From: Phycisphaerae bacterium
Lineage (GTDB): Bacteria; Planctomycetota; Phycisphaerae; JAJVII01
Length of the DNA stretch: 64,000 nucleotides
Direction of reading: 5' to 3'
Assembly: GCA_022072085.1 (NCBI GenBank)
Contig: JAJVII010000050.1
Location: 1-64,000 of the forward strand
Shown: piece after piece, positions 16,575-28,985 of the stretch
How positions within the stretch are numbered: the stretch's first letter is position 1
Layout: each line of letters starts with the position of its first letter
Notes under the pieces: model-generated
The model's input: the letters and a program-made list of their open reading frames with translations, nothing else
Told to the model about the DNA's origin: nothing
Databases searched by the model: none
Program-made: the position numbers and the translations under genes

Positions 16575-16627
16575 ACAATGTCGAATGCCGAATGTCGAAT
16601 GTCGAGTGAATGACGAATCACGAATGC
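16575..16627. repeat. Degenerate CGAATGT/CGAATGC heptamer array
   Basis: About seven 7-base units related to CGAATGT run through the gap between the zinc-ribbon gene and the NagB-like gene. Related inverted sequence (TTCGTCATTCGCCATTCC) lies at about 16694-16711, so the gap is weakly palindromic. The same GAATGAC-type unit recurs at 27660-27719. Confidence 0.75.
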
Positions 16628-16725
16628 CCGGCCTTCGCGTTGAAACGACCTGCGGGCCGCTTCAAACGCGACGCGGACCATTCGTCAGTCGGGCTTCGTC
16701 ATTCGCCATTCCCGGCCCGGCCGGG

Positions 16726-17676: not shown

Positions 17677-18125
17677 GCCACGGATTTCACGGATTACACT
17701 GATTCAAGAGAGATCTTGAGACAAAGCGCTTCCGATAGAGACTTTCCATGCCGAAGTTCAACAGCAGCCCTACGGGCAGATTGCTCGCCTTCAGATAGTT
17801 CAAGACCTGGGCTACGAAGACGGGCGCGTTTTCCGCCGTCGCTTTCAACTCGATCAACACGGTGTCGTTGACGACCATGTCGGCGAAGAACTTGCCGACC
17901 GGAACGTCTTTGTATTGAACGGGCAATTCCGCCTGGCGTTTCACCTTCAGTCCGCGGCGCCCGAGTTCATGCTCCATCGCCAACTCGTACACCGACTCGG
18001 CGTATCCGCACCCGAGGACCGAATGAACCTCGCAGGCCGCCGCGAGGATTTCCCCGGTGAGCTCCTCGTACGCCAGTCTCGCCATCACGCCCCCTTCCGA
18101 CAGTGTAATCCGTGAAATCCGTGGC
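17677..18125. mobile_element. Inverted-repeat-bounded element carrying a GxxExxY gene
   Basis: Positions 17677-17701 and 18101-18125 are perfect 25-bp inverted repeats. Each arm is made of degenerate 9-base units (CACGGATTT, CACGGATTA, CACTGATT). The only gene inside is the GxxExxY gene, whose stop codon at 17687 lies within the left arm and whose ribosome binding site lies between its start and the right arm. The unit of 449 bp interrupts a same-strand gene cluster. No transposase and no obvious target duplication are seen. Confidence 0.65.
17687..18088 (-). CDS. GxxExxY family protein
   Basis: 133 residues from GTG 18088, or 132 from the adjacent ATG 18085; GGAAGG lies just upstream. The defining motif is in [13 protein letters not shown] (G-x-x-E-x-x-Y). 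[15 protein letters not shown] is a PD-(D/E)xK-like nuclease core, and [15 protein letters not shown] with VGLLLNFG completes the family pattern. The family is widespread in environmental bacteria, often in several copies, and has no established function. Here the last codons (QCNP and stop) are encoded by the left inverted repeat, which suggests that gene and repeats move or are copied as a unit. Confidence 0.88.
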
Positions 18126-28828: not shown

Positions 28829-28985
28829 TTTTCATAATTCAGTTCGCCGCTGAGGCGCAGAGACGCTGAGGGAAGGGACTTGGATGAAAGCGGGCATCGG
28901 AAGCAATCGAAGAACTCGAACGCGACGATTTCCATCTACCCTTGTCCCTCTGCGACTCAGCGTCTCAGCGGCCAATTATGAAAGA
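28829..28985. repeat. Second gene-less inverted-repeat element, period-8 units
   Basis: The left arm (about 28829-28877) and right arm (about 28938-28985) are inverted copies sharing TTTCATAATT and CCGCTGAG, with a small indel. The arms consist of units such as CGCTGAGG, CGCAGAGA, CGCTGAGG. The 60-base interior has no gene. The right arm ends just before the ribosome binding site of the next gene. Confidence 0.7.

Follow-up and report, generated by a model that had tools for sequence, protein, structure and literature searches.

The window, i.e., the whole 64,000-nucleotide stretch of the Phycisphaerae bacterium contig that was analysed, contains a GxxExxY gene framed on both sides by an inverted repeat. 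The features of this locus are as follows.

17677..17701, plus strand: left arm, GCCACGGATTTCACGGATTACACTG, a 25-nt perfect inverted repeat with 0 occurrences in shuffles; it contains the word CAC-GG-AT / CACTG three times and holds the GxxExxY stop codon
17687..18085, minus strand: GxxExxY gene, 132 aa, a predicted PD-(D/E)xK nuclease by family, fold and residues (D69, E79, K81, Q93, Y97)
18056..18058, minus strand: codon of Thr10, the residue predicting word base n2 (here G), by covariation
18065..18067, minus strand: codon of Glu7, the residue tracking word base n1 (here G), by covariation
18101..18125, minus strand: right arm, the exact reverse complement of the left arm

As the first-pass annotation of this DNA had stated, the two arms are identical over 25 bp (25 of 25 positions), and they are separated by 399 nt. 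Its placement of the stop codon within one arm was likewise correct, since the minus-strand reading frame runs from the ATG at 18085 to the TGA at 17689-17687 and therefore ends inside the left arm. A GTG at 18088 was considered as the start codon and dropped in favour of the ATG, because the latter aligns with relatives. The start codon lies only about 15 nt from the right arm, an interval that includes the ribosome-binding site GGAAGGGGG. The further claim that the arms enclose the gene and its ribosome-binding site alone holds in the window, where GxxExxY is the sole gene between them and no known transposase is enclosed, but it does not hold generally, since the distance between arm and gene can exceed 100 bp at some loci. 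The 21-nt core of the arm occurs exactly twice in the window and not once in 100 dinucleotide shuffles, even when three mismatches were allowed. It is to be noted that the arm is not a unique 25-mer; it consists of about three iterations of CAC-GG-AT at 9-nt spacing. Short words were also seen elsewhere in the window, namely a gene-free inverted set of related words at 16577-16704 (GTCGAATGC, GACGAATCACGAATG ... CATTCGTCAGTCGGGCTTCGTCATTC), about 1 kb from the GxxExxY locus and probably of another word family, and, at 28956-28970 of the minus strand, a solitary tandem word, CGCTGAGACGCTGAG.

The encoded protein is an ordinary, full-length member of the GxxExxY (TIGR04256) / PDDEXK_3 (PF13366) family, matching TIGR04256 with 132 bits (cut-off 35) over positions 1-116 of 116, and PF13366 with 126 bits. 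Its AlphaFold2 model (pLDDT 92.5) has a core fold with D...ExK and QxxxY, and a fold search of the PDB placed it nearest to Cas4 SSO0001 (4ic1) and the lambda-type exonucleases (LHK-Exo, 3syy); sequence searches for solved relatives returned none that was convincing. The triad D69, E79 (or D) and K81 is complete in 195 of 198 family proteins, and QxxxY (Q93-xxx-Y97) is also conserved. Such near-invariance of the catalytic residues indicates strong selection for catalysis in this predicted nuclease. The PD-(D/E)xK-like core noticed at first pass was, therefore, borne out by PF13366, the model, the fold search and the conserved residues. Compared with Cas4, lambda exonuclease and MGME1-type enzymes, the fold and QxxxY are shared, whereas GxxExxY is much smaller and has an extra N-terminal helix carrying the word-matching residues described below. 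In the searchable open-access literature, the family is named only in passing, and its partner DNA, function and flanking repeats are not described; searches with the repeat sequences or the family names found nothing relevant, and older cyanobacterial small-repeat work may describe some arms.

The assembled genome (5.49 Mb, 72 contigs) contains six GxxExxY genes, and inverted arms were seen by eye just outside all six, each with its own word (CACGAAG, CACAGAG, CACAGAT, CACGGAT at two genes, and CGCGAAT). Arms were scored by local alignment of the upstream DNA against the reverse complement of the downstream DNA, in a first set of 35 genes from the Phycisphaerae genome and related ones, and in a second set of 83 loci, made up of 80 public-genome loci and three viral contigs; 663 controls came from frames displaced along these loci. 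In the second set, 60 of the 83 loci scored above the 99th percentile of the shifted controls, and a score of at least 34 was reached by 50 loci as against a single control (1/663). Overall, flanking inverted arms (score of at least 30) were found at 156 of 198 distinct GxxExxY genes, with about 1% of the 663 controls being comparable; the other 42 genes had no clear arms at the score used. The word regex covers a single class of words. Thus, the check proposed at first pass, namely whether flanking inverted repeats go with other GxxExxY genes, gave a positive answer both in this genome and across the family. The 198 genes come from at least ten phyla, and the carriers of clear arms, placed in phyla by their record titles, include Planctomycetota, Verrucomicrobiota, Cyanobacteria, Chloroflexota, Acidobacteriota, Bacteroidota, Pseudomonadota, Desulfobacterota, Spirochaetota, Neomarinimicrobiota and Gemmatimonadota. 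These sequence comparisons strongly support the view that the arms belong to the GxxExxY gene family.

The common arm begins with 5'-(A)ACC, continues with about three words of the form C[AG]C-n1n2-A[GT] with 1-4 nt between them, and ends in GA-rich DNA. Each word is 7 bp long, the words stand in tandem without an internal palindrome, and the inner word-to-word span has a median of 426 bp. The spacers between words matched between the two arms of a locus in 44 of 76 cases, against 21 expected from arms of the same word at different loci, which suggests that an arm is copied or paired as a whole. No arms were found at L062, a divergent GxxExxY that has lost its catalytic residues. Unusual arrangements were noted at two plasmid loci: on plasmid 1 of Gemmatirosa kalamazoonensis (L416), each side of the gene has a complete inverted arm pair and not a single arm, and on a plasmid of Fusobacteria bacterium ZRK30 (L419), the gene-flanking repeat AGATTTAATCCGTGTACCTAT is direct and not inverted. 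In Stieleria tagensis (G048), three short matches (L164, L166, L168) cover only the first 27 or so positions of the GxxExxY profile and are possibly remnants of decayed genes.

The words were then compared with the proteins that they flank. For 144 genes with a clear word (at 80% identity, 86 effective sequences), the word was compared with each well-filled protein column in turn. For n2, residue 10 stood out with 0.63 bits (z = 29 relative to shuffled labels), followed by the column next to it (z 6.8). Thr10 occurred with n2 = G in all 54 of 54 genes, Ala10 with n2 = A in 32 of 33 and Val10 with n2 = A in 6 of 6 (Ala and Val together, 38 of 39), while Ser10 occurred with either G or A; mixed arms were found with 72% of the Ser10 proteins versus 17% of the Thr and 12% of the Ala proteins. 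A tree from which the N-terminus had been left out contained 13 independent pairs differing in n2, and residue 10 had changed accordingly in all 13. Residue 7 tracks n1 less strictly than residue 10 tracks n2: Asn7 occurred with A in 68 of 73 genes, all 13 scorable CAAG words with Asp7, and Glu7 with n1 = G or A. In the window, the protein carries Glu7 and Thr10 and the arm word has GG. Covariation between arm and protein, which the first-pass annotation had listed as something to look for, is therefore evident from the strength of the residue 10 signal and from the 13 contrasts.

The code was derived on the collected set and then applied to unseen plasmid loci, in which the residues were placed by eye. 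At the six loci with recognisable words, residue 10 agreed in all six (Thr-G four times, Ala-A once, permissive Ser once), and so did residue 7 (Asn-A three times, Glu-G three times), with two of the six having only one word per side, in one case in direct orientation. In the AlphaFold2 model, residues 7 and 10 lie at the start of the long N-terminal helix (residues 2-24), in positions i and i+3, and this helix may enter the major groove. Since the gene lies between inverted words, and one or two of its residues predict letters of the word, the nuclease and its repeats give the impression of a matched pair. That the arm word is matched to the protein, and that the match can be read at residues 7 and 10, is strongly supported by the covariation; recognition of the arms by the GxxExxY protein is well supported on the same grounds, and the protein presumably binds them.

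A case of joint change of arms and protein was found in Nostoc, where one GxxExxY gene has valS on one side and a transporter gene on the other; the left flanks are about 91-95% identical. Four types, A to D, occur at this site, with the words CGCAAAG, CGCCAAG, CGCAGAG and CGCGAAG; from type to type, the two arms switch in step with the protein, and the outermost AACGAACCGC is constant. The proteins of types B and C are nearly alike except at the N-terminus, LAYAV versus LTGEV, and this difference is what the residue code predicts. Across Nostoc, the gene is present in few copies, mostly at a small set of shared sites. When genome-wide word counts were compared with the type resident at valS, they were 26 versus 6 for type A (medians; p = 1e-4), 55 versus 3 for type B (p = 4e-4) and 29.5 versus 15 for type C (p = 0.016), with no excess of matching words for type D; these p-values are optimistic because the genomes are related. 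As the highest B count was inflated by a MITE carrying an arm, the test was redone without that genome (G052), which gave p = 0.0016 for type B; the MITE check covered G052 among the high type-B genomes, which also include G094, G101 and G089. The counts support a tendency of gene-free dispersed arms to match the resident type. Their use as direct proof of spread in trans was discarded, since the biggest signal (G052, 160 hits) was a conventional MITE. Most of the loci L260-L276, and L279, in this genome are copies of that high-copy MITE, which has the ends TAGGACTTACGCA...TGCGTAAGTCCTA and 5-bp target duplications, and holds one GxxExxY-type arm (word CGCCAAG), which thus hitch-hikes inside a transposon of conventional type.

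The Phycisphaerae genome, too, is rich in gene-free arms. In a sample of 1.09 Mb (20%), 143 tandem same-word arms were counted versus 15 on the reversed sequence, and five of the six commonest arm words in the sample were words of the six resident genes. Of 101 sampled arms, 70 are paired with an inward-facing arm 28-187 nt away and 6 with an outward-facing one, and 25 have no partner; the gene-free inverted pairs often lie between genes, and the dispersed element copies are roughly 66-93% identical. Several elements with the AGAT word enclose an element with the GAAT word (L364:7597-7768, L375:5941-6142, L391:13230-13388, L396:3712-3870), as if one element had inserted in another, or as if the composite had spread. 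Among the Nostoc loci that were read, single arms predominate, and at fixed single-arm sites the word differs between species, often across all three iterations. Some Nostoc arms are in frame within conserved proteins, namely SufD, ChlH, Lnt and an ROK-family kinase, and the arm in SufD shows up as a gap of 7 residues when this protein is aligned to E. coli SufD. At the individual loci (L204, L207, L209, L211, L225), in-frame arms lie inside or at the end of lnt, chlH, sufD, the ROK kinase gene and xseA, adding peptides such as NEPQRRRGRRE or TNRRGAESAEEE.

Presence of GxxExxY is patchy between related genomes, and the search for empty sites that had been suggested at first pass yielded two insertions with empty counterparts, both in other species or genera. 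In Sphingomonas parapaucimobilis, the gene and its arms lie between fabD and fabG, a junction that is uninterrupted in S. paeninsulae and Methylobacterium bullatum; in Bacteroides finegoldii, they follow radA and are absent in Parabacteroides distasonis. No target-site duplication was visible in these occupied/empty comparisons, in which the distances are too large to read one. The empty fabD-fabG and radA sites had no arm in the aligned stretch, and the classical homing pattern is therefore not seen there. Within Nostoc, a joined-flank search at valS and eight gene-free sites gave no clean empty site, the listed sites being occupied or split; seven Nostoc genomes without the element at valS hold 1.7 kb of other DNA there. 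Almost every site tested in Nostoc is occupied. No gain, loss or movement was seen at strain level. A phage or plasmid vehicle was considered and rejected, with 3 loci in IMG/VR, 0 in phage records and 8 plasmid records, several of them large replicons; the family is thus rare in phages, viral contigs and plasmids. At one locus, in Ramlibacter sp. Leaf400 (L136), the element is bordered by an imperfect duplication, about 25 bp long, of the start region of the downstream gene, possibly a long target duplication or a chance match. The original suggestion of a self-spreading element was upheld in part, in that the arms are general and co-vary with the protein, and two insertions have empty counterparts, but the term 'self-spreading gene' is too strong, because the gene stays at a few fixed sites in Nostoc and high numbers are a feature of the arms rather than of the gene.

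One protein family, one arm architecture, the residue-to-base code and the joint switching at valS together lend strong covariation support to a reading in which GxxExxY would be a sequence-specific nuclease, matched to the arms framing its own gene and to arms dispersed in the same genome. The two variable bases of each word would be read by residues 7 and 10 (numbered as in the window protein), at the start of the N-terminal helix, and the approximately three words per arm would recruit several protomers. The nuclease may then nick or cut at or beside the arms, whereupon host repair or recombination might copy arms elsewhere, either one at a time or as inverted pairs, which on occasion would enclose the gene, and non-matching arms at old places might be overwritten; we infer this route of spread and rewriting. 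On this view it would be the arms that propagate, with the gene supplying an enzyme that mostly stays where it is, much as RAYT does for REPINs. We consider this full reading, with a matched arm-specific nuclease, dispersed propagating arms and a mostly resident gene, to be probable.

REPIN/RAYT systems, in which a distinctive enzyme gene has repeats beside it and a dispersed population of inverted repeat pairs exists (PMC3116915), offer the best analogy. As in REP/REPIN-RAYT, the enzyme gene is mostly single-copy and resident, with its own repeat type adjoining and matched to the enzyme type, and there are many gene-free copies as singlets and inverted doublets; by this analogy, an arm-specific nuclease with a population of matching arms fits better than a self-spreading gene. 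GxxExxY is nonetheless not a member of that class, because both enzyme class and repeat architecture are unrelated: RAYT is an HUH/Y1 tyrosine transposase and GxxExxY a PF13366 PD-(D/E)xK nuclease, the REPIN repeat unit is an imperfect palindrome and the arm consists of three tandem 7-bp words without one, and only GxxExxY shows a visible residue-to-base code. Insertion sequences and MITEs share inverted ends with or without an enclosed gene, but their ends lack the iterated words, which here also occur as single arms, and no target duplication was seen. The small nuclease gene and the suggested copying by host repair recall homing endonucleases, in contrast to which there is no intron or intein, and the recognition words flank the gene and are not disrupted by it.

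Other explanations have to be weighed against the matched, arm-spreading nuclease. A domesticated host system, in which specific arm reading now serves chromosome organisation, repair, gene-end regulation or autoregulation, would have its arms kept by selection and its words changed by recombination, with no nuclease-driven spread; this would suit the genes and single arms at orthologous sites across Nostoc, the frequent intergenic position of gene-free pairs and the strong selection on catalytic residues. The one-word bursts in some genomes, the nested elements and the in-frame arms in essential genes look like spread, however, and occurrence among related genomes is patchy, so that we hold domestication to be unlikely, though deserving of serious attention. 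Should the arms owe their spread to a different enzyme, such as RAYT or an IS transposase, or to general repair, the GxxExxY gene would only ride between two of them, much as the arm in the G052 MITE rides in a conventional transposon; this appears improbable, as the word tracks residues of the enclosed protein and switches with the protein at one site, and L062, the one clearly degenerate member, has no arms around it.

A role in defence or self-marking, with the nuclease attacking DNA that lacks or carries certain words and the arms marking self DNA, might be read from a conserved nuclease beside its own recognition words and from word types that differ between strains at one site. It is still harder to credit, considering that no modification or immunity partner gene is enclosed and that the family is nearly absent from phages, viral contigs and plasmids. 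Lastly, although gene-free inverted pairs are often intergenic and terminator-like, the idea that the arms are terminator-like hairpins or chance repeats beside an unrelated gene is already contradicted by the residue-to-base code, as well as by the 1/663 controls and the joint switching of arms and protein, and is scarcely tenable.

If the matched-nuclease reading holds, a very common protein family of unknown function gains a partner DNA and a testable activity, the class of dispersed 'CACAGAGGCACAGAG'-type repeats in many genomes is accounted for, and a natural, readable protein-DNA recognition code would be available in a nuclease of only about 130 residues. Nuclease and matching arms look like a new minimal repeat system, a pair that spreads and is rewritten in genomes, and, should spreading or rewriting of the arms indeed be the work of the nuclease, this would be a second, independent REPIN/RAYT way of life with a different enzyme. 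On balance, we lean slightly towards an undescribed chromosomal repeat-spreading class, present in at least ten phyla, in which a Cas4-like nuclease with a one-residue-to-one-base code in its N-terminal helix would spread, pair and rewrite its own arms genome-wide and acquire new specificities via residues 7 and 10.

Very short dispersed, apparently mobile repeats in Nostoc were reportedly described by Elhai et al. in 2008 (cited in PMC4390886 and PMC3116915), and some of these small repeats might coincide in part with the present arms. SDR5, one such small repeat, inserts inside HIP1 sites (PMC4390886), which differs from what was seen with the GxxExxY arms. In the Phycisphaerae genome, arms with the CAAG word are common (18 tandem hits; for example, L366:182-303, L371:7287-7424 and L393:11574-11732), although CAAG is absent as a word of its six genes; by the code, they would go back to a gene with Asp7 and with Ala or Val at residue 10 that has been lost or is missing from the assembly.
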